From an uncultured Roseovarius sp. (GTDB taxonomy: Bacteria > Pseudomonadota > Alphaproteobacteria > Rhodobacterales > Rhodobacteraceae), in assembly GCA_937884705.1 (NCBI GenBank), contig CAKZYL010000382.1:1-34274 (forward strand): a DNA stretch of 34,274 nucleotides. Reading direction: 5' to 3'. Position numbers and translations under genes: made by a program. This document shows, piece by piece, positions 17,317 to 33,189 of this stretch (positions are counted from its first letter, which is position 1; each line of letters begins with the position of its first letter). The notes below the pieces were generated by a model that saw only the letters and a list, made by a program, of their open reading frames with translations, was not told the DNA's origin and made no database searches.

Positions 17317-18324
17317 CTATCCATTTGAGCTTTCGATAATGTCGTTGATTTCAGCCAGAAGATGATCTGGCAAGTCTATGCCGTGAGCGACGGCGGCTGA
17401 TCTTTTTTGTTGCCGTGACACGCCTGGCAATCGCGTCCCATCCTGAGCCATGATGGTCTGCAAAAGCCCCTCAAGGCGCTCAGAAAATCCGGGCGCTGCC
17501 GCGTCTGGAGAAAAGGCGATGATCGTCTGCCCCACGCCGGGTGGCGCGCCTTCGGCCTCAAAGAACGACGTCGCCTGATATGAAGGGTTCGCGCCTGTAA
17601 GCGTGGCGCATAAGATCTCTACGATCAGGGCCAGAGCGGCGCCCTTGGCGTCCCCCATGGGGAGCATTGTGCCTTTGAGCGCATCAGTGGCATTCGTTGT
17701 CGGTTGTCCATCTGCATCCAGCGCCCATCCCTCTGGGATCTTCTCGCCCGACTTCGCGGCGGCCATCACCTTGCCGCGCGCCACACGAGACAATGACAGG
17801 TCGATCACCAAGGGAGGCCCATCAGCCCTGGGTGCCGCAAAGGCAATTGGGTTTGTCCCAAAGAGTGCCGTCGATCCGCCCCAAGGTGCCATCGCTGGTG
17901 GTGAATTCGCCACCATCAGCGCAACAACCCCTGCGGTCGCAAGCTTTTCGACATGGGCACCCAATTGACCACAATGATGCGAGCGATAGACATAGCCGGC
18001 GGCGATGCCATCTTTACGAGCTATCTCTGGCAACTCGTTGATCAAAAGAGACAGCGCCGGGAAAGCAAAGCCATACTGCGCATCCACGTGTAGCAGCGAC
18101 GGCGTCGGGCGCGAGATTTGTGGCACCGCATGCCCATCCACTTTGCCAGACGCTGCCTGCGCCGCATATGAGGCGACACGTGAGAGGCCATGCCCGCCCT
18201 GCCCGTCAACCTGCGCGGCGATCAAGGCATCCGCGACCTTCACGGCGTTTTCTGGTGACACATAAGAGACGGCAAAGGCCCGCACGACCAGCGCGCGGGC
18301 CTCTTCAATTGTCAAAACCGCCAT
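17317..18324 (-). CDS. Ldh family (malate/L-lactate/sulfolactate) NAD(P)-dependent dehydrogenase, probable (R)-sulfolactate dehydrogenase (ComC-like)
   Basis: 335 aa; VDGQGGHGLSRVASYAAQAASGKVDG...YRSHHCGQLGAHVEKLATAGVVALMVANSPPAMAPWGGSTALFGTNPIAFAAPR is the Ldh_2 family pattern; overlaps suyB by one base (TAATG). Confidence 0.88.
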   Translation of the reverse strand: MAVLTIEEARALVVRAFAVSYVSPENAVKVADALIAAQVDGQGGHGLSRVASYAAQAASGKVDGHAVPQISRPTPSLLHVDAQYGFAFPALSLLINELPEIARKDGIAAGYVYRSHHCGQLGAHVEKLATAGVVALMVANSPPAMAPWGGSTALFGTNPIAFAAPRADGPPLVIDLSLSRVARGKVMAAAKSGEKIPEGWALDADGQPTTNATDALKGTMLPMGDAKGAALALIVEILCATLTGANPSYQATSFFEAEGAPPGVGQTIIAFSPDAAAPGFSERLEGLLQTIMAQDGTRLPGVSRQQKRSAAVAHGIDLPDHLLAEINDIIESSNG

Positions 18325-19502
18325 TAGGCTGAGCGGTAAAGCTTGGTCATGGAAAACTCGCGGTGACCGAGCGCTTCTGCTGCCGTGTTCCGACCATTGG
18401 CGGTACGGCGGATCATGTCGATCAGCGCGTCACCGGCCTCATCAATCGTCATCTCGCGGCGCAGGATACCGGAGACATCCACGTCCACATGCTCAGACAT
18501 GGTGCGCACGGTGCGCGGGTTTGCGGTGATCTTAATGACCGGCACGATCGGGTTGCCCACGACGTTGCCCTGCCCGGTTGGGAAAGTGTGCACCACAGCC
18601 CCACCCGCGGCCATCAGCGTGACGCATTCGGCTGCCGCAGACGAGCTGTCCATGAAATAAAGGCCATCGCCAGATCTGGGCTGCTCAGCAGGCTCCAGAA
18701 TGTCGATGTACTGAGAGGTGCGGCCGATCTTTTCGAGGTTGCCGAGGGCTTTCTCTTCGATGGTGGTCAGACCGCCTTCGATGTTGCCTTTGGTGGGCTG
18801 GCTGTCGGAAAGGTCATCGGTTTGGTGCGCGAAAATCACGTCGTCCTGATAGGCCTTCCACATCTTGTACCAACGCTCCCCCACCTCATCATTGATCGCA
18901 CGCTTCTGGCAAATGTGCTCTGCCCCCGTGATCTCAGAGGTTTCGCCGAAGAAGCCGGTGATGCCTTCGGGCAGCAGTTTGTCATACATGTTGCCGACCG
19001 TTGGGCAGGATCCCAGACCCGTTGTCGTGTCACTTTCGCCGCATTTGGTGGAGACCCATAGCTCTTTGATCGAGCATTCCTCGCGCTGCACTTCCGTGGC
19101 CTTGTGCACGAAGTCTTTCGCAGCCCAGCTTGCTGCGCGGATCGTTTCAAAGTCGCCCTTTTGCTCAATCGAGAACTCGGCCACTTCCTTGCCAGTTTCG
19201 CGGATGCCGTCGGCGATGCGCTTGGTCCAGCCGGGCTCAATCCCGATCACGACGACAGAGTGCACGTTGGGGTTGGCGCCGGTGCCGATCATGGTGCGGA
19301 AATGCAGCTCCAGGTCTTCACCGAATTGCAGGCGGCCATAGGCGTGCGGCAGGGCCATGGTGCCTTTGACGTTGTTGGCCACGGCCTCAACAGCCGCATT
19401 AGAAATGTCATCGACCGGCAGGATCACGACGTGGTTGCGCACACCCACACGGCCGTTTTCGCGCCGGTAGCCCATGAATGTCATGTTAGAGTAATTGCTC
19501 AT
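18324..19502 (-). CDS. suyB: (2R)-sulfolactate sulfo-lyase large subunit (SuyB; UxaA/altronate dehydratase family C-terminal type)
   Basis: 392 aa; [90 protein letters not shown]; split small/large subunit layout as in SuyAB. Confidence 0.88.
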
Positions 19503-19886: not shown

Positions 19887-19906
19887 TGTATAAGAAGTCT
19901 TATACA
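19887..19906. promoter_or_regulatory. Probable operator for the divergent GntR-family regulator (suyR-like)
   Basis: Perfect inverted repeat TGTATAAGA-AG-TCTTATACA centred between suyA and the GntR gene; the half-site TTATACA recurs at 19914-19920. Confidence 0.75.
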
Positions 19907-19929
19907 AGAGTAATTATACAGGAATTCGC

Positions 19930-20664
19930 GTGACGGATCTGACCAACACCCAGACGGCCGGCAAGGCCCCGCCGCTTTACCAGGTTGTGATTGATACGAT
20001 CGTGGCGCGCATTGCCTCTGGTGCGCTGCCTCCTGGCGCGATGCTGCCCAGCGAGGTGCAGCTTGGCGCCGAATTGGGGGTCAGTCAGGGCACGGCGCGC
20101 AAGGCGCTCATCGACCTTGAGCGGCGCGGGCTTGTGCAGCGCGAACAGGGACGCGGGACATTCGTCACGGTCCAGACGCCGGACCGGGCGCTGTTTAATT
20201 TCTTTCGCCTGAGGGGGCCGGATGGGTCGCGCCCAGCTCCAGTGCTGGAGCATCAAGACATCGCCGCACGCGCCGCAACGGCGGAGGAAGCCGCGCTGCT
20301 TCACGGTCAGCCTGAGCGCGTTTTTGAGATCCGACGGCTGCGCAGCTTGCCGGTAAATGACCGTCTTTCTGAGGTCTCCGTTGTCGCGCAAGCCCTCTTT
20401 CCCGGTCTGCTGGAGCGCGCGCCGCTGCCGAACACCCTCTATGTGTTTTATCAGCAGGCCTATTCCTGCATCATCGTACGCGCCGAGGAACGTCTTGTTC
20501 CCACCAACGCAGATGAGCAGACGGCCGAGAAACTGGGCATTGCCCCCGGGACGGCAATTCTGCGCGTGGAACGTGTGGCCTTTGACGCGCTTGACCGCGC
20601 TGTAGAGCGTAGGATCAGCCTGATCCACGCGAAAACAAGCAGTTATGATGTGACGCTGAAATAA
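19930..20664 (+). CDS. GntR family (HutC/UTRA subfamily) transcriptional regulator, probable SuyR
   Basis: 244 aa, GTG start; PLYQVVIDTIVARIASGALPPGAMLPSEVQLGAELGVSQGTARKALIDLERRGLVQREQGRGTFV winged HTH plus UTRA-like C-terminus (PGTAILRVERVAFDALDRAVERRISLIH). Confidence 0.93.
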   Translation: MTDLTNTQTAGKAPPLYQVVIDTIVARIASGALPPGAMLPSEVQLGAELGVSQGTARKALIDLERRGLVQREQGRGTFVTVQTPDRALFNFFRLRGPDGSRPAPVLEHQDIAARAATAEEAALLHGQPERVFEIRRLRSLPVNDRLSEVSVVAQALFPGLLERAPLPNTLYVFYQQAYSCIIVRAEERLVPTNADEQTAEKLGIAPGTAILRVERVAFDALDRAVERRISLIHAKTSSYDVTLK

Positions 20665-20720: not shown

Positions 20721-21638
20721 CTAAAGTCGCCCCACGAACGCAGCAAAATACAGTGCGCGTGTTGCCATCATGCCTTCGCGCAGGATACCGGACTGCTTAA
20801 GCAAAGTGACAGCTGTCATCCCGTTGACGCGGCGCGCTTCACTGAAAGCGTCGAGGATCTTTGCGTTTTTGGGCGTCAGCCGCGCATTGGACAGAACTTG
20901 CAGGTTGGCGGCAGACCACTCTGAAAACCGCCCGCCGAGCAATCCGGCGATCCTGCGGACCATGGCGAGCAAATCTGCATTGTACCCGATCTCATTGTCG
21001 CCATGCTGTCGATAGTACAGGCAAGGCTCGCGGTCAAACATCACCTCTCCCCCGGCCCCACTGACCAACATGTACATCAGCCAGTCGGTTGCGGCGATGT
21101 CATAATCCGCCGCCTCATCCGGAACCAGATTACGGGCCGCCCCATTGAAAAACATCGTGTTTCCCGCGGCAAAATTCTGCACCAGAGCATTGGCGAAACC
21201 GAGCTTTTTGCCTTCCCGAATCGAAGGCGCAATGTGCTGGAGATCGGTGTCGGTGACGACCGTGCGCGCGCCATAGAGGGCGGGGCGCGACATGTCTGCA
21301 AATCGCGCCAGCGCGCGCGTCAGCTTGTCTTCAAACCACACGTCATCCTGATCGGAAAAACTGTAAAACTCCGCCTTTATGTCAGGGTCTAGCAGCAACG
21401 AGATAAAGTTCTGCGCGGCCCCCCGCCCCGGACCCTGCCGCACATGCAATTCAACATCCGGGTGCCGCGCGCGCCAGTCCTCAATGATCTGCAACGTGTC
21501 ATCGTCTGATCTGTCATCGCTGATCCAAAGCGACCAATTCTTGTGGCTTTGCTTTAAGAATGAGTCCAGCTGTCGCTCAAGAAAGCGGCCTCCATTGTAG
21601 GTTGCCAGCAGAATGGCGATATGTGGTTCGCTTTTCAC
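20721..21638 (-). CDS. Glycosyltransferase family 2 protein
   Basis: 305 aa; IAILLATYNGGRFLERQLDSFLKQSHKNWSLWISDDRSDDDTLQIIEDW...FSDQDDVWFEDKL: GT-A/GT2 motifs. Confidence 0.93.
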   Translation of the reverse strand: MKSEPHIAILLATYNGGRFLERQLDSFLKQSHKNWSLWISDDRSDDDTLQIIEDWRARHPDVELHVRQGPGRGAAQNFISLLLDPDIKAEFYSFSDQDDVWFEDKLTRALARFADMSRPALYGARTVVTDTDLQHIAPSIREGKKLGFANALVQNFAAGNTMFFNGAARNLVPDEAADYDIAATDWLMYMLVSGAGGEVMFDREPCLYYRQHGDNEIGYNADLLAMVRRIAGLLGGRFSEWSAANLQVLSNARLTPKNAKILDAFSEARRVNGMTAVTLLKQSGILREGMMATRALYFAAFVGRL

Positions 21639-21648
21639 CGCGTCTCAA

Positions 21649-22806
21649 TCATTGGGTTGGGTCCGTGATCATTTTGAATTGCGACGGGCGCTCGGGTTTT
21701 TGAGTGTCCTCGGCATCCATCATGTCAGATACAATGGCGATATGTCCGCCCGCCTGCGCGCATAGCACACCGGTAAGACGCTCAAATGCGTGGGCGGTGG
21801 TCCCGTCCAGTTGGCCGCGCTCCAGCACGAACTGATTGGCCTGAAAGCCAAGGTCACGGATCACGTTGAGAAGCTCTGGCTTCATCCAAAACATCGAGCC
21901 GGCCGCAAATTGCAATTCCCCTGTGCTCAGGCTCAGGCCCACCTGCTCTGCCAAGCGTTCGGCCACGGGTTTGTTGATAGCCCACCATTTGTCACCGGTA
22001 TAAAGAAACGGATCAGGAACCAGCATTTTCGCGGATCTGTCCGCCAAAAAACCCTCGATCATCCCGCGCACCCCGCGTGACGGCAGCAGGCCATCTGTCA
22101 GCTCTTCGCGCCACACGTCGCCGTCCAAGAGGTGCGGAGACTTTTTCGTGTGCAGCTTGCAGACAGCATCATAGCGCGACAGCAGCCCTGAGTTCACCAG
22201 GTTCAGGAATGCCAGCACGTCGCGGCCGACATTGGGTTGGCGTTGAATGTGGGAGACGGGCACGTCACCTGCTGCAATCGCTTCAGCCACAGGGTCAAAC
22301 TCGGGCGCGTCGGGGACAGTCACGATCACATCAAGATCAAGGTTGACCTCAGAGAGGTGCGCCGCGAACTTTTCCCATACATCAAGGTAGAACACGTGCA
22401 CTACCAGAGCAAACTGCGCGGTCTTTGGCCACGGTCGGACGGACGGGAACGTTCCTTCGAAATAGACGCCGGCGTCAAGCGGGGATTGCGTGATCCGCCT
22501 CTCTGACTTGCCATGCCGGATGTAATGCATGAGCGGGCCGTGGGGATAGGTTGCCACGTCAGAATAAAGATCGGCATAGGAGACAGGGTCAAACTGACTA
22601 AACGGCGCATATCCCATGCGTTCACCGATCAACACGTAATGGGCGATCGGGAACTTGCTCCAAAACGCGCCAAGACCGGGATAGTTCCGCCGATATTGTG
22701 TTTTATCGAAGAGCCCGCTCCAGGCAATGTGGCCCACGCGGGTAAGCCGCGACACCAGTTTTGTCCGATGCGCCAGTCGACTGAGTAGTGCCTTTGAGCC
22801 TGCCAT
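21649..22806 (-). CDS. Rhamnan synthesis protein F (RgpF) family protein
   Basis: C-terminal NVGRDVLAFLNLVNSGLLSRYDAVCKLHTKKSPHLLDGDVWREELTDGLLPS...DPFLYTGDKWWAINKP; N-terminal FDPVSYADLYSDVATYPHGPLMHYIRHGKSERR motif. Start taken at ATG 22806 (MAGSKALLSRLAHR) rather than 23040. Confidence 0.87.
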   Translation of the reverse strand: MAGSKALLSRLAHRTKLVSRLTRVGHIAWSGLFDKTQYRRNYPGLGAFWSKFPIAHYVLIGERMGYAPFSQFDPVSYADLYSDVATYPHGPLMHYIRHGKSERRITQSPLDAGVYFEGTFPSVRPWPKTAQFALVVHVFYLDVWEKFAAHLSEVNLDLDVIVTVPDAPEFDPVAEAIAAGDVPVSHIQRQPNVGRDVLAFLNLVNSGLLSRYDAVCKLHTKKSPHLLDGDVWREELTDGLLPSRGVRGMIEGFLADRSAKMLVPDPFLYTGDKWWAINKPVAERLAEQVGLSLSTGELQFAAGSMFWMKPELLNVIRDLGFQANQFVLERGQLDGTTAHAFERLTGVLCAQAGGHIAIVSDMMDAEDTQKPERPSQFKMITDPTQ

Positions 22807-23147
22807 AATCCGCAATGTCAGTTCGAAATTTATTTTTCTTGCGCAGCGACTGCTACCCCACTGCTGCTTACGGTTGACTATGCCCAAAAGAGCCGCCTCG
22901 TCAAGCCGCGCGAGGACATAGCCCGTGGATTTGTAACGCATAAAGCGACATGTCGCTAGGCCCGAGACATGTCCAAACGCGGCCTGTTTTGCCCATGTTT
23001 TCCATGAGCATGGCCGGGCCAATGTCGCGGTGTTGCTCAACCTCTATCATCACGCAACGGCAAAACCTGGGCTGCGCTTGATCTTCAGGGGGTCTGCTGC
23101 GTGCCGGATACACGACCGTGGAGCGGGCCAAGAGCAAACGGTGGGCC

Positions 23148-24041
23148 TCACTTTGGAGTGACGCGGCTTTCGCGCAAGAGCGTCTCAAGATAGGTGCCGT
23201 ATGCATTCTTGGCGAAGGCCTGCGCGCGCTCTTTCAGCTGCTCGACCGTCATCCACCCGCTTTGAAAGGCAATTTCATCTGGACTGCCGATTTGCGTGCC
23301 CTGGCGTTTTGACAACGTGCGCACAAAGTTGCCAGCATCAAGCAAACTGTCATGGGTCCCGGTGTCGAGCCAGGCAAAACCGCGCCCCATGGGTTCGACA
23401 GACAAGAGACCTTCGGACAGATACATCTCGAGCAATGTGGTGATCTCAAGCTCTCCACGGGCCGATTTTTCCACGTTGCGCGCGCGCTGCGGCGCCGTGC
23501 CATCGAGGAAATAAAGCCCAGTGACGGCGTAGTTCGATGGGGGAACCTCAGGCTTTTCAATTATGGATCGGGCGCGGCCATCATTGTCAAAGTCCACAAC
23601 GCCGTAACGTTCGGGATCGGCGACCTGGTAGCCAAAGACAGTGCCGCCCTCGGTCTTTTCATTGGCCTGCATCAGGATGCTGGACAAAGAGTGCCCAAAG
23701 AAGATGTTATCGCCCAAAACGAGCGCAGAAGGCGCGCCGTCAAGGAACGCTTCGGCCAGGATAAAGGCCTGAGCCAGACCGTCAGGCGAGGGTTGTTCAA
23801 TGAAGGTCAGCTCAATCCCCCACTGACGCCCATCGCCTAGCGCCCGTTTGAATTGATCCTGATCTTGGGGGGTGGTGATCACGGCGATCTCTCGGATCCC
23901 GCTCAACATCAATGTGCATAAGGGATAGTAGATCATTGGCTTGTCAAAGACGGGCAACAGCTGCTTGGAGAGCCCCGTCGTCACCGGATACAGTCGGGTA
24001 CCCGACCCGCCCGCCAGAATGATGCCCTTGCGTTCCGTCAT
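23148..24041 (-). CDS. rfbA: Glucose-1-phosphate thymidylyltransferase
   Basis: 297 aa; KGIILAGGSGTRLYPVTTGLSKQLLPVFDKPMIYYPLCTLMLSGIREIAVITTPQD. Confidence 0.97.
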   Translation of the reverse strand: MTERKGIILAGGSGTRLYPVTTGLSKQLLPVFDKPMIYYPLCTLMLSGIREIAVITTPQDQDQFKRALGDGRQWGIELTFIEQPSPDGLAQAFILAEAFLDGAPSALVLGDNIFFGHSLSSILMQANEKTEGGTVFGYQVADPERYGVVDFDNDGRARSIIEKPEVPPSNYAVTGLYFLDGTAPQRARNVEKSARGELEITTLLEMYLSEGLLSVEPMGRGFAWLDTGTHDSLLDAGNFVRTLSKRQGTQIGSPDEIAFQSGWMTVEQLKERAQAFAKNAYGTYLETLLRESRVTPK

Positions 24042-24895
24042 GTTCCGTCCCTTGCGTCCAGCACCGCATCCAGTGCGTGTGCCCAGTTAGGCCTGGCAAT
24101 GCCAAATGTGTCTAAGGTTGCTCTGTTGTCCAACCGTGAATTCAGAGGCCGTCTGACAGCTGTTGGATAGTCCGCGGTCGCGATGTCGTTCACTGCGCAG
24201 GACATCCCGGCGCGCGCAAAAATCGCGCGGGCAAAGTCGGCCCAACTGACATCAGGCTCTCCAGAGAAGTGATAGGTTCCAGATTGTCTTTTATCATCAA
24301 TGAGCTGACGCGCAACGTTGATGCAGGCATCGGCGATGCTGGACGCAGGCGTGGGGCCACCAAGCTGATCCGCGACCACATTGATGGCGTCTCGTTCAGC
24401 GCCAAGACGCAGCATGGTTTTGACAAAGTTGTTGCCATATTGCGAGAAAACCCAGGACGTTCTGAGAACCGCGTGGGTGGCACCGGAGGCGCGCACCATG
24501 GCTTCTCCTGCTTGCTTTGTGCGGCCATAAGCCCCGAGCGGCGCCACTGGGTGATCTGTGGCATAGGGTGCATGGCCCTGCCCGTCAAAGACGTAATCAG
24601 TGGAGATATGCACGACAGGCAGATCACGTTCTGCCGCCGCGCGTGCGATGGCGCCAGGTGTCTGGGCATTTATCATAAGAGCCTTGGGCTCTTCTTTCTC
24701 AGCCTGATCCACCTGCGTGTAGGCCGCCGCGATGATTATGGCGTCGGCATCTGTCTTGAGGACATGGCGCGCGCAATGCTCTGGATCTTCGAAATCCGCC
24801 TCAGCGCGCGACAGGGATTGAATGGCAACTTGGGCCTGAGAGGCCTGCAGTGCACGGCCCACCTGCCCGCTTTGACCGAACACCAAAACCTTCAC
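24038..24895 (-). CDS. rfbD: dTDP-4-dehydrorhamnose reductase
   Basis: 285 aa; [15 protein letters not shown]...[41 protein letters not shown]. 4-bp overlap with rfbA. Confidence 0.96.
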
Positions 24896-25932
24896 CCTGT
24901 CTTGCCCAATCTGACGCCCACCCCGCTTCGATCAAGCAAAGGCCGCCACCAGCTTTCGTTGCTCAAGTACCAATCGATCGTCTTCTCAAGGCCTTGTTCG
25001 AGGGTCACCGATGGTGTCCAGCCAAGCTCATTCTCAATCCGGCTTGCATCAATGGCGTAACGCAGATCGTGCCCCGGACGGTCAGGGACAAAGGTAATCT
25101 GCTCGCGATAGGGCACGGGCTTGGGGCGTTTGCGATCCAGCAGGTCGCAAATCATATGCACCAGATCGATGTTGCGCGCTTCATTGTTGCCGCCGATGTT
25201 GTAGCTGCGCCCAATCTGGCCCTTTTGCAGCACAGTCAGCAGAGCCTCGGCGTGATCTTCGACATAGAGCCAATCGCGCACGTTGATGCCTTGACCGTAG
25301 ACCGGAATGGGTTCGTCGAAGATCGCCTTCAGGATCACAACGGGCACCAGTTTTTCGGGAAAATGATACGGCCCGTAATTGTTGGAGCAATTGCTCAGGA
25401 CCACGGGCAAAGCAAAGGTTTCACCCCAGGCACGCACCAGATGGTCACTCGCGGCTTTGGAGGCGGAATACGGTGAGTTCGGCGCGTACGGCGTGTCTTC
25501 GGTAAAGAGACCCTCATCACCCAAGGTGCCAAACACCTCATCGGTTGAGATGTGATGAAAGCGAAACCCTTCGGGGCGGCCCTGCGCGTGCCAGAACCCT
25601 CTGGCAGCTTCCAGCATATTGTACGTGCCGGTGACAGTGGTCGCTATGAAATCACCGTGCGCATCGATGGATCGATCAACATGGCTGTCGGCCGCCAGAT
25701 GCTTCACCGCATCGGGCACATGTTCTGCGAAGACGCGATCAAGAGCGGCGCGGTCGCGGATATCGACATGCTCAAACGCGTAGTTTGGATCCTGCGCAAC
25801 AGACGCCACATTTTCGAGGCACGCCGCATAGGTGAGCGCATCGACATTTACGACACTGTGGCCTTTGCTCACCGCTGCGCGCACCACGGCAGACCCGATA
25901 AATCCCGCGCCTCCGGTGACCAATATCTTCAT
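24892..25932 (-). CDS. rfbB: dTDP-glucose 4,6-dehydratase
   Basis: [21 protein letters not shown]...[18 protein letters not shown]...[12 protein letters not shown]...[19 protein letters not shown]...[16 protein letters not shown]. Start at ATG 25932; overlaps rfbD by 4 bp. Confidence 0.97.
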
Positions 25933-26197
25933 GTTTTTTCTCTCGTCATTGGCATGCTCTCTGCCCTGTGCGGGTTTAAACAATTCCCCACGCGCCTTTC
26001 AAGGGCGGCTTGCCTCGCTACCCCAACAAAGGTAAGTGCCTCAAAACGGCCTTGGGCGCGCCATTCCTGAAGCCAAACCCACATACTGCATGGCCGTCTG
26101 CAAGACACATGCAAACGGCTTGGATCTTTGGTTTTCATGACCCGTCTCGCAACATTTTTCGGACCAGTCAGCGCCGAGACAGAGGGGGTAGCCCGTC

Positions 26198-28751: not shown

Positions 28752-29744
28752 ATGCGGATCATCTTTCACATCGGGATGGGGAAGACGGGCACGACCTCTA
28801 TTCAGAACGCCTTGGCGCAGAATGCGGCGGCTCTGGCCCGGCAAAAGGCGCATTATCTTGGCATGTGGTTTGACGGGGTGGATCAGAAGTTTCGCGGGTT
28901 AAAAGGGTTTGGCATGTTCGTCGCCCAAAGCGAAGAGAACCAAAAGCGTCACGCCCAGCACTTTTGGGATCATGTGAATGCCATCGCGAAAGACACCAAG
29001 GCCACGACATTTGTGTTTTCCAATGAAAGCCTCTTTCAGAATGGTCCTCGGCTCGCGCCCTTTTTTGGCGAACTGCAAAACCTGAGCGCTGAGCTGGATG
29101 TCATAGCCTTTGTGCGGGATCCGCGCGCGTGGCTGCCTTCGGCCCACACCCAATGGGCGCTGCGGCATAAAACCAATGAAGGCCCTCTCGAAGATTTCGC
29201 AACGAGTGCCAGGCGGCTCATTAAATTCTATGACGCCTTGCCTTTCTGGATCGAGCAGTTTGGCGACGCCGCACAGATCCGCCATACTGCGCTGGAACAC
29301 GATGTCGTAGCGGATTTCGCTGAGACCACTGGGCTGATCCTCACGCCCCCTGCGACCCGTGCGTTGGAACGCTCAGAACCTGCAGACATCCTGCTTCGGG
29401 CGATGTTCAACAACCGCGTAGAGGGCACCGCCCTGCCCGAGCGCTTCAATCGCGTCATTCGTGACACAGAGGCCAACCCTGTGCCGTCCTTGGAGGACAT
29501 CAAACGCGTCTGCTTCGATCAAAGCGCCGCAGAGACCGTGATTTCCGAAAACGCTGGCCTGTTTGAGTTTTTGCGCGACCGAACGGGCATCGACTTTGTC
29601 AATACCTCTGATGATCCCCCCGCCGAGCCAGACGACGCGGAGCTACAGCGCCGGGTGATTGACTATCTGATTGAGATTACGTTTGACCAAGCGCAGCGAC
29701 TTAAACGCCTTGAACGCCTGGTGAGTGAGCTGCAAAAAGACTGA
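28752..29744 (+). CDS. Sulfotransferase-like P-loop protein
   Basis: 330 aa; MRIIFHIGMGKTGTTSIQNALAQN resembles the 5'-PSB (PAPS phosphosulfate-binding) loop; VIAFVRDPRAWLPSAHTQW resembles the 3'-PB region. Confidence 0.65.
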   Translation: MRIIFHIGMGKTGTTSIQNALAQNAAALARQKAHYLGMWFDGVDQKFRGLKGFGMFVAQSEENQKRHAQHFWDHVNAIAKDTKATTFVFSNESLFQNGPRLAPFFGELQNLSAELDVIAFVRDPRAWLPSAHTQWALRHKTNEGPLEDFATSARRLIKFYDALPFWIEQFGDAAQIRHTALEHDVVADFAETTGLILTPPATRALERSEPADILLRAMFNNRVEGTALPERFNRVIRDTEANPVPSLEDIKRVCFDQSAAETVISENAGLFEFLRDRTGIDFVNTSDDPPAEPDDAELQRRVIDYLIEITFDQAQRLKRLERLVSELQKD

Positions 29745-29822: not shown

Positions 29823-32648
29823 CTAAGCCAACCGCGCGATGCTCTCATCCTGCAACAGATGCGGGCAGTGCTTTGATATCCGAGCCATGACACTGGCAAG
29901 CTTCTTTTCTCTACCGAATTTCGCATAGCAAAGCGCGCTTTGCCGAAGGATGCGGGGATGATTGGGAAAGCGGCGCAAAGCGAGGGCGCAGAGTTGCAGC
30001 GCGCGATTTTGCTTGTTCATTTCAAGATAACAGGCCACGGCGTCCGCCAAGCCATGAACATTGTCTGGATGATAGGCCTTGCCGGCTTCCTCGCTGAGAG
30101 TGGCCGCCACTGAGAGATCCCCGGCATCGCGCGCGGTCTTGGCACGGCCCAAGAGATGCTGGCGCCGATGATACCGCTCCTGTGCGAAAACATGGGCGGC
30201 GTGATCCCGCGCCTCTTCCTCACTCACACCCAATGCGCTGGCCAGATGGGTGGGATGCCAAAACCAATCTTCAAACCAGACACGGTGCCTAATGTAGCCT
30301 TTGGTCTCCAGAACCTTCCACACGTCCTTGCGGCTTTGCTCAATGCCGCCGTGCTCAACTGTCAGCAAAGCAAATCGGCATGTGTCAAAATCGACGCCTG
30401 AGAGGATCTCAGCCTCGCTGCCTTCAGTGTCGACGGACATGTAATCCACGACCTCTGGCGCGCTCGCCGAGGCCAGCATTTCGCCCACTGTGCGCCCATA
30501 GACCTCAATGACCTTGCCATCCTCAATCGCAGCGTTTCTTTTGCCCGCGTGAATATCGTCGTCATGGATGAAATCCACCAGACCACCGATCGCGCCCGCA
30601 TCGACAAAGCGCAGTTTGCCGCCGCTCTCGGAGAATGCCGCATTGTTATAGGCGATAGCGCTGCGGTTTTGGCAGATCACTTTGTGCCAGCGGGGATTGG
30701 CCTCAACGATCATGCCGTGCCAGCCCAGCATCCGCTCAAGCAAAAGCGTATTGGAGTTCTCAACCCCGTCATGCCCGCCAATCTCAGCAAAAAAGCCGCC
30801 CGTTTTGAAACGCAGCATCTGCATGACCCAGTTGTCTTGATAGATCTGGGAGTATCGCGGCAAGGACAGGAACCAGACCTCTTCGCCCTTTAGATTTCTG
30901 GGCGATACATCAACCAGGTCCGGCGCGGCTTTGACCTCAAGATCAAGGCGTTTCAGGGAGAGGAAGACCGGTGTTTCGCCTTTGCGCTCGACAGTGATGC
31001 CAAGCTTGAGAGGTGCGTCATAAGCAATTGGTTTGATTTGAAAACTGCGGTGCAAGAGCATGTCGCCAAACTGCAGTTTTAGAAAGAGCGTCGTGTCGGA
31101 CCACATCAGATCAACGCGGGTAAGATCCTCAGCTTTTGCCACTGGCCAATCTGTGTGATCGGGGGCTGCCTCTTTCAGAGCGTCGGCTTGGCGCACGTCA
31201 ACGCTCACCATGTCCTGCAAGGCAACGGTGACAGTGAGATCAGATGCACCATCCCCCTGCAGCGTGATGTTCAAATCAAAAGGAGACGCGCCAAACGGCA
31301 GAGCAAGGTCAACGCGCGCGGACGCAACCTGATCCTTGGTCACGGTCAAGGCAGTCTTGCTGTCGATCTGAATTTTGTCGCCAGACTCGCGGCCCGGCAC
31401 GACCAGACACTCACCCGCCCCGGATGCGTTTTGCGACACCAAGGTGTAACCAAAGATCGTGTCAGCAGACACCGACCAAAGATCGGGCGCAAATCCAGAC
31501 CCGGCCTTTTGCTGACCGATTTGAAATGTCTCAAGCACCCGTGTCTTGGGCAAGTCAGCGTGGCGTTGATGGGCCAGCTTTCGCACCACGTGATAGACGT
31601 CGCGCGGCATCATGCGGAAATCCAGCAAACCGAACGTCTTTTCCTGCTGAAGGTCCCACGGCAGATCAATGAGCTTATACCAGTAACCCCTTGCAATCCT
31701 TTGAGTTTGCGCCATCCACTCCAGCGAAGCACGGGCGAACTCTGATTGCTGGAACTCATCGTTGTAGTGCGGGCCCGACACCTCCAGAGACCGCGCGCCA
31801 TACTCGGTTACCCAGATCTCAAGCCCGTTCAGATCGGCCGCATCATATCTCTCAAAGAAGTCTTCGCAATGCTTTTGCGTGGCAGACAGAAGGGTCTTAT
31901 CCGGACGATGATGAATGCGGAAATAGGGATACGGATGGAACGCGCAGGCATGGAAAAGCGGCAGGATTTCATTGCTGCGGGCGGCCAGGATTTTCGTCAG
32001 ATCTCCCCAAAACTCCGGAATGAAGTAAAAGTGGCTGTGGGGCCCATCGGCGCGATACTTATTGTACTCGGCCGTCTTGGGCAGTCTGTTTGAGAGGGCT
32101 GGTGGGCGGTCGTCATGCCCGACAACCCCATCTTCGGCCATGGCCCCGATACATAAAGTGGCATTGGGCTGAACCTCTTTGATAGCGCGTGCGCCAGGCA
32201 GGAGAATGTGATCGACAAACTCTTCTGGCGTCCAGGGCCGGGCACCATTGTCAGTCTTCACTGAGAGATAGAAATCACTGGCATTGGGTTCGTTCCAAAT
32301 CTCCCAATCCGTGATGGTCGGAAAGCGCTTTGCCACAAGCCTACAGTACCGCGCGAAACGCTCGGACATCGCGGAGGGATCGTGAAAATAGTCTTCGGCG
32401 ACCGTGCTTGAGGGATGCACGAGATAGCCCAGCGGTTTGGCCGAGCCTGGCAGCGCCGCGAGCGCCCGATCAACGCGCGCGCAGGCCTGCGCGTTCAGCT
32501 TGCCATTGCCTTTGGGTTCGATCGCGGCCCAGGTGAGCGAGATCCGCACAGACCGCATGTCGAGCTCACACAGCCGATCCCCCAGCAGGTCCAGAGAGCC
32601 GCTCATCCTTACATGCGTCAGGGCCGGCGCGTTGATGCCAATGATCAT
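29823..32648 (-). CDS. Multidomain protein: clan GH-A glycoside hydrolase-like domain + beta-rich linker + FkbM family methyltransferase + TPR-like C-terminus
   Basis: GH: DWEIWNEPNASDFY and LEIWVTEYGARS. FkbM: YSQIYQDNWVMQMLRFKTGGFFAEIGGHDGVENSNTLLLERMLGWHGMIVEANP and VVDYMSVDTEGSEAEIL. C-terminal RALQLCALALRRFPNHPRILRQSALCYAKFG helical repeat. Start taken at ATG 32648 (MIIGINAPALTH); track ORF opens at 32831. Confidence 0.82.
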   Translation of the reverse strand: MIIGINAPALTHVRMSGSLDLLGDRLCELDMRSVRISLTWAAIEPKGNGKLNAQACARVDRALAALPGSAKPLGYLVHPSSTVAEDYFHDPSAMSERFARYCRLVAKRFPTITDWEIWNEPNASDFYLSVKTDNGARPWTPEEFVDHILLPGARAIKEVQPNATLCIGAMAEDGVVGHDDRPPALSNRLPKTAEYNKYRADGPHSHFYFIPEFWGDLTKILAARSNEILPLFHACAFHPYPYFRIHHRPDKTLLSATQKHCEDFFERYDAADLNGLEIWVTEYGARSLEVSGPHYNDEFQQSEFARASLEWMAQTQRIARGYWYKLIDLPWDLQQEKTFGLLDFRMMPRDVYHVVRKLAHQRHADLPKTRVLETFQIGQQKAGSGFAPDLWSVSADTIFGYTLVSQNASGAGECLVVPGRESGDKIQIDSKTALTVTKDQVASARVDLALPFGASPFDLNITLQGDGASDLTVTVALQDMVSVDVRQADALKEAAPDHTDWPVAKAEDLTRVDLMWSDTTLFLKLQFGDMLLHRSFQIKPIAYDAPLKLGITVERKGETPVFLSLKRLDLEVKAAPDLVDVSPRNLKGEEVWFLSLPRYSQIYQDNWVMQMLRFKTGGFFAEIGGHDGVENSNTLLLERMLGWHGMIVEANPRWHKVICQNRSAIAYNNAAFSESGGKLRFVDAGAIGGLVDFIHDDDIHAGKRNAAIEDGKVIEVYGRTVGEMLASASAPEVVDYMSVDTEGSEAEILSGVDFDTCRFALLTVEHGGIEQSRKDVWKVLETKGYIRHRVWFEDWFWHPTHLASALGVSEEEARDHAAHVFAQERYHRRQHLLGRAKTARDAGDLSVAATLSEEAGKAYHPDNVHGLADAVACYLEMNKQNRALQLCALALRRFPNHPRILRQSALCYAKFGREKKLASVMARISKHCPHLLQDESIARLA

Positions 32649-32769: not shown

Positions 32770-33189
32770 TTAGCCAGTATCCGCAACAAGCCCGTGGCTC
32801 TCGATCGCCGCGACGGCTGCGGCCTCATCATTGTCAGAGCTGTCGCCCGTGATCCCTAACGCGCCGATCACAACACCGTCGCGTTTGATCAACACGCCGC
32901 CCGGCACCGGGACCAGATGCCCGTCATTCAACGCATTCATCGCGCTGATGAAATAGGCCTGTTCCTGGGCGCGGTTGAAGAGCGCGTGGGATCCCAGCCC
33001 CATGGCCACGGCACCTTTGGCCTTTCCTTGGGCAATCTCGGCGCGCAGGTTGCTGGTAACATCTTCGCGCTGCAAGGCCACCAGATGCCCACCGGCGTCA
33101 ATCACGGCGATTGTCAAAGGCTTCATATTCCGTGCCCGCCGATAGGTGAGCGCTGCCGCGATCAAGCCGTTGGCCAGGTCCAGGTTCAT
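32770..33189 (-). CDS. HbpS/GlcG-like heme-binding family protein
   Basis: MNLDLANGLIAAALTYRRARNMKPLTIAVIDAGGHLVALQREDVTSNLRAEIAQGKAKGAVAMGLGSHAL...VPVPGGVLIKRDGVVIGALGITGDSSDNDEAAAVAAIES; typical GlcG/HbpS fold. Track ORF to 33591 is extended by a shadow frame of the TRAP gene. Confidence 0.9.
   Translation of the reverse strand: MNLDLANGLIAAALTYRRARNMKPLTIAVIDAGGHLVALQREDVTSNLRAEIAQGKAKGAVAMGLGSHALFNRAQEQAYFISAMNALNDGHLVPVPGGVLIKRDGVVIGALGITGDSSDNDEAAAVAAIESHGLVADTG

Follow-up and report, generated by a model that had tools for sequence, protein, structure and literature searches.

A predicted clan GH-A glycosidase barrel joined to an FkbM methyltransferase in a single protein beside rhamnose genes of an uncultured Roseovarius

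The Locus

The window, i.e., the whole stretch of DNA analyzed, is a 34,274-nucleotide contig from an uncultured Roseovarius sp. It includes a gene for a 941-residue protein made up of four parts, as follows: a clan GH-A barrel, a β-rich domain, an FkbM methyltransferase, and TPR-like helixes (Table 1). The gene is a single intact frame that runs on the minus strand from 32648 to 29823 with zero internal stops. The first-pass annotation had placed one protein of about 941 residues here, which is correct, but had omitted the strand. A plus-strand reading of 29823–32648 was rejected because stops are numerous. An in-frame extension of the gene, up to 32831, begins within the adjoining GlcG/HbpS-like gene, which stops near 32770 and is separated from the fusion gene by about 120 bases. 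Promoter- and terminator-like sites around the fusion gene are no more frequent than chance.

Table 1. Coordinates of the fusion gene, its parts, and its neighbors.
Feature	Position	Strand	Basis
Whole fusion gene (P0001, 941 aa)	29823..32648	(-)	ATG at 32648, stop at 29825-29823; codon-position GC alike in four segments
Clan GH-A TIM barrel, PslG/GH39-like, residues 1-~365	31554..32648	(-)	Pfam; PslG profile, 3.1e-35 for the eight-sequence group; Foldseek PslG, 2.0e-12
Predicted acid/base E120 in WNEPN, end of strand 4	32289..32291	(-)	Invariant in 8 relatives; aligned with PslG NEP Glu
Predicted nucleophile E282 in VTEYG, end of strand 7	31803..31805	(-)	Invariant in 8 relatives; aligned with PslG STEWG Glu
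β-rich domain, residues ~366-580	30909..31553	(-)	Predicted strands, pLDDT about 30-63; co-linear in G034 protein
FkbM SAM-dependent methyltransferase, residues ~598-800	30249..30857	(-)	Pfam PF05050, 4.1e-14; 23 relatives; model pLDDT 91.6
SAM-binding motif EIGGHDG, residues 622-628	30765..30785	(-)	E622, G624, G628 invariant in 23 relatives
DTEGSE motif, residues 740-745	30414..30431	(-)	Invariant in 23 relatives
TPR-like helical tail, residues ~805-941	29826..30236	(-)	Weak Pfam TPR_19/TPR_9; confident paired helixes; Foldseek TPR matches
Sulfotransferase, PF17784	28752..29744	(+)	Convergent neighbor of fusion gene
Fused glycosyltransferase with RgpF domain, 849 aa	26198..28747	(+)	
rmlA, rmlD, rmlB (dTDP-rhamnose synthesis)	23148..25983	(-)	
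GT2 glycosyltransferase and RgpF-like glycosyltransferase	20721..23040	(-)	

The setting had been described as a polysaccharide locus. The rml and RgpF genes do lie alongside, but the fusion gene is not in the rml operon; it is convergent with the sulfotransferase gene, which ends at 29744. The rml set of the window is missing rmlC, which is found at the end of another contig (G000:C517:79-588). No gene in the window was recognized as that of a flippase, an ABC exporter, or a polymerase. In the 849-residue neighbor, a weakly matched GT4-type glycosyltransferase region is joined to the RgpF domain.

The island is flanked on both sides by genes for sugar-acid uptake and catabolism (TRAP DctM, a galactarate/altronate-type dehydratase, and GntR). 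A predicted ORF at 19900–20628 on the minus strand was judged spurious, and a GntR-type gene on the opposite strand was preferred. No empty site for the island was found between the sugar-acid genes in the nearest dehydratase-bearing relative (G003), which shares only the dehydratase gene and the piece next to it.

The Glycosidase-like Barrel

Clan GH-A enzymes are TIM barrels with the hallmark of a Glu after each of strands 4 and 7; they act by double displacement, and the anomeric configuration is retained. Over the N-terminal third of the fusion, Pfam gives Glyco_hydro_cc (3.9e-6) and GH1 (5.2e-6), both over cut-off, and not GH39. The nearest PDB sequence is PslG, at 5.4e-6 for the single sequence and 6.8e-8 for a two-sequence profile. 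A profile of eight barrels, the fusion's and those of seven relatives, matches PslG along the whole barrel with both Glu aligned, and GH39 xylosidases next; since this profile takes in more distant secreted relatives, its E-value of 3.1e-35 gives the superfamily placement of the group, not of the fusion alone.

The two motifs on which the glycosidase call had been based, WEIWNEPN (residues 115–122) and WVTEYG (residues 279–284), are both present in the one protein. Invariant in the eight-sequence alignment are R35, W40, D114, E116, W118, N119, E120, H238, P239, Y240, T281, E282, and G284. These include the side residues of clan GH-A, i.e., the Asn before the acid/base Glu (N119), the strand-2 Arg (R35), and the strand-6 His and Tyr (H238 and Y240).

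The barrel and β-rich half was modeled from the eight sequences, with a mean pLDDT of 57 and many barrel elements at 75–97. Strands 114–117 and 277–280 of the model put E120 and E282 after barrel strands 4 and 7, respectively, a numbering that takes residues 2–8, which like some loops are of low confidence, as the first strand. In the PDB, Foldseek ranks PslG structures highest for this half (~500 columns, E 2.0e-12 to 2.4e-11), but with a high rmsd, so that only the barrel is trustworthy. From the alignment, E120 and E282 would correspond to E165 and E276 of PslG, both of which were mutated in an earlier study (PMC6813494). Thus, the clan GH-A catalytic domain with both Glu residues, proposed in the first-pass annotation, is borne out by Pfam, profile, model, and Foldseek.

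The β-rich middle that had been described is strand-rich in the model, at low confidence, and has no Pfam match. It is possibly a carbohydrate-binding β-sandwich.

The FkbM Methyltransferase and the TPR-like Tail

FkbM enzymes methylate hydroxyls using SAM. In the fusion, Methyltransf_21 (PF05050) matches residues 622–785 with 53.5 bits against a cut-off of 22.7, and both motifs of the family, E-x-G-x-x-x-G and D-T-E-G-S-E, are present. An NCBIfam scan gave sub-cut-off matches only, including the FkbM family TIGR01444 at 24.4 bits against 37.7, and the methyltransferase is therefore filed under PF05050 only.

The C-terminal half was modeled from 23 sequences, separately from the other half, because a joint alignment misplaced the GH rows beyond residue 310. 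Its model has a Rossmann-type methyltransferase followed by paired helixes, and Foldseek matches it to SAM methyltransferases, with a modest TM-score, and to TPR proteins in the PDB. HMM and structure searches together thus recover both the TIM barrel and the FkbM fold, and the methyltransferase had been correctly called. The helical repeats, also seen earlier, are TPR-like by model and Foldseek. In Pfam, the TPR_19 match is below cut-off (E 0.003, 18.2 against 25 bits) and sub-threshold TPR matches span residues 840–930; accordingly, we call the tail TPR-like.

Occurrence of the Fusion and Its Parts

The full fusion was found in no other genome in 1,997 genome-searches, which included all 85 congeners in the sample; this number counts searches, not distinct genomes, as the genus, family, class, order, and phylum samples overlap, and part of the searches scored only 2–3 candidates per genome. 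Nor was it found in the plasmid collection, and the GH half was not found in viral contigs. A pattern scan of genome contigs, which needs exact short peptide matches and so excludes close relatives only, gave matches to the GH part alone, at 25–35% identity. No title or abstract describing a GH–FkbM fusion was found in a literature search of partial coverage. The component domains are of known kinds; their combination is new among the genomes searched and is a singleton. The architecture had been flagged as unusual, and no second example of the same domain order turned up in the genomes and plasmids. A singleton in a draft genome calls for caution over novelty.

The halves also occur apart. 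A same-genus protein of 596 residues (G034, L002:1417-3207) is co-linear with residues 1–580 of the fusion at 28% identity. It keeps both Glu residues and the NEPNASDFY motif, and it is the only close relative. This stand-alone protein indicates that the barrel and β-rich domain form a unit of their own. Like the fusion, it has no signal peptide and adjoins a sulfotransferase-like gene; unlike the fusion, it has neither FkbM nor TPR parts and is not in a rhamnose locus. With the fusion gene itself outside the rml operon, any specific tie between rhamnose and the glycosidase half is thus putative. Its GTG start overlaps the stop of the sulfotransferase-like gene by one base, and the two genes are apparently translationally coupled. 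Identity between the two sulfotransferases is just 21%, and the Pfam match of the G034 one is below cut-off.

The G034 pair (L002:434-3207), in which the sulfotransferase-like gene adjoins that for the signal-less PslG-like protein, lies outside any recognizable polysaccharide locus, between purA- and ppk2-like genes (names assigned from translations).

FkbM is joined to TPR without a GH domain in a 1064-residue protein (L063:2249-5440), and a TPR–FkbM order is found at L025. The last ~650 residues of the 1064-residue protein, from genome G226, match no Pfam family.

Cellular Location

A hydrophobicity scan of the 941-residue fusion found no signal peptide and no transmembrane segment, in agreement with the earlier reading of its N-terminus. 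Its most hydrophobic 19-mer averages 0.97 (Kyte–Doolittle), versus 1.7–2.3 in relatives with an N-terminal signal. An N-terminal hydrophobic or transmembrane-like segment is found in seven of nine other PslG-like relatives and is absent in the fusion and the G034 protein; the remaining two of the nine are likewise without a signal (L061:7586-9034 and L062:18118-19416). RTX repeats and a C-terminal domain of the serralysin type are present in the former, so that a missing N-terminal signal alone is not proof of a cytosolic place. The C-terminus of the fusion is FkbM–TPR, with no RTX match. An export signal supplied from an upstream start was rejected, as the extension begins inside the adjoining gene and has no hydrophobic segment. 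SAM is cytosolic. Together, the absence of signal and transmembrane segments, the C-terminus, and the SAM requirement suggest that the fusion likely sits in the cytosol.

These two signal-less relatives belong to exopolysaccharide-type loci of the same bacterial family (L061:6407-9034 in G920; L062:7898-9004 and 18118-19416 in G848). In each locus, two PslG-like glycosidases are encoded, of which one has an N-terminal signal and the other lacks it. The signal-less L062 protein ends in a sequence similar to that of its L061 counterpart, with no Pfam match.

Comparison with Known Systems

PslG of Pseudomonas aeruginosa has a barrel that aligns end to end with that of the fusion, with both catalytic Glu residues in the same places, and it too is a glycosidase encoded with polysaccharide-assembly genes. 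Its hydrolytic activity is needed for Psl production, and it acts on the periplasmic side, not in the cytosol (PMC6813494). PslG, which resides at the inner membrane/periplasm (PMC6813494), lacks both a methyltransferase and TPR, whereas the fusion is without an export signal, has a larger β region, and carries FkbM–TPR fused behind.

Members of the FkbM family (PF05050), including those at L063 and L025, share with the fusion the motifs, the fold, and the joining to TPR. None of the family proteins found has a glycosidase domain, unlike the fusion.

A works-like parallel only is offered by two O-chain terminators, each one cytosolic protein with two activities, a methyltransferase among them. 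WbdD is bifunctional and caps and sets the length of polymannose O-chains (PMC3482155), and a bifunctional Klebsiella pneumoniae O7 protein does so for rhamnose-containing O-chains (PMC11231755). In these proteins, the partners of the methyltransferase are a kinase and a coiled-coil ruler, and there is no glycosidase; in contrast, the fusion has a TPR-like tail, and no Pfam kinase family matched it at E up to 10, which sets it apart from WbdD-type proteins.

A Proposed Role and Its Alternatives

Our tentative proposal, which we hold at a little short of an even chance, is that the fusion works in the cytosol as a glycan-tailoring protein with two enzymes, one trimming or transglycosylating a rhamnose-containing glycan and the other O-methylating it before it is exported. 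The PslG/GH39-like barrel would be a retaining glycosidase, with E282 as nucleophile and E120 as acid/base, that cleaves or transglycosylates a glycan bond, perhaps assisted by the β-rich domain. The FkbM domain would use SAM to methylate a hydroxyl on one of that glycan's sugars, and the TPR tail may dock the fusion to a glycosyltransferase complex. The likely substrate would be the product of the adjacent rml, RgpF, GT2, and sulfotransferase genes, a glycan that contains rhamnose and is perhaps sulfated, while it is still on its lipid carrier and not yet exported. Trimming and capping may jointly edit the chain or set its length.

The proposal is consistent with the complete GH-A residue set, invariant in eight diverse relatives and kept in the G034 protein at 28% identity; with the whole-barrel match to PslG, whose hydrolysis Psl production requires; and with the complete FkbM motif set in 23 relatives and its well-modeled fold. 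It also fits the lack of signal and transmembrane segments in a chain that holds a SAM enzyme, and the adjacent rml, RgpF, GT2, and sulfotransferase genes. As a single chain encoded in a glycan locus holds both enzymes, the glycan made there would be the simplest candidate for a substrate common to the two. Trimming or transglycosylation with methylation before export follows the precedents of PslG, WbdD, and O7. Against the proposal, the joint arrangement, seen once, is without evolutionary conservation; the gene is outside the rml operon, and its G034 relative is not near rhamnose genes; no flippase, ABC exporter, or polymerase gene was recognized in the window; the β domain has no family match; and PslG is periplasmic. 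The domain chemistry is predicted on a strong homology basis, whereas we infer the activity, substrate, reaction order, docking, coupling, and length control.

A narrower form, which would make the fusion a new type of chain-editing enzyme and in which the glycosidase would cut a nascent lipid-linked glycan in the cytosol and the methyltransferase would cap the new end, fixing its length, is distinctly unlikely.

The GH domain could instead serve mainly to recognize the glycan, as a platform from which the chain is offered to FkbM, with minor or lost glycosidase activity. A cytosolic hydrolase would endanger the cell's own nascent glycan, and residues 366–580 may be a binding domain; but a pure binder needs none of the clan GH-A catalytic residues, all of which are invariant, also in the FkbM-less G034 protein. 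We consider this alternative unlikely.

Doubtful as well is a recent chance gene fusion, peculiar to the strain, with the two activities uncoupled. The singleton status in the overlapping searches and the separate occurrence of the halves would be expected of it, but all domains lie in one unbroken frame of ordinary codon-position composition, and the catalytic motifs are kept in both halves, which are thus both apparently under selection.

An intracellular catabolic or salvage glycosidase tied to the flanking sugar-acid genes is quite improbable: these genes stand on both sides of the island, and GH1-type cytosolic glycosidases, a family that scores weakly here, are common, but a catabolic enzyme would have no use for FkbM and TPR parts, and the neighbor across the stop is a sulfotransferase, followed by glycosyltransferases.

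Most improbable is an assembly artefact in which two genes were joined in frame; the assembly is a draft of 518 contigs, 84% complete, with no second copy confirming the junction, but the frame is continuous through a short linker between the β domain and FkbM (about residues 580–598), the GC is uniform and the codon-position pattern ordinary across the gene, the two other FkbM genes of the host genome are weaker matches on other contigs, and that genome holds no second full-length match.

Implications

PslG-type hydrolases are needed for some exopolysaccharides, but what use an assembly line has for a cutter of its own is little understood. Under the tailoring proposal, a cutter and a methylating enzyme on the cytosolic side would make it possible to ask cleanly, within a single protein, if cutting and capping are coupled. 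Even if accidental, the fusion would still bring together two enzymes that presumably act on one glycan, and it would thereby hint at the modification state of that glycan.
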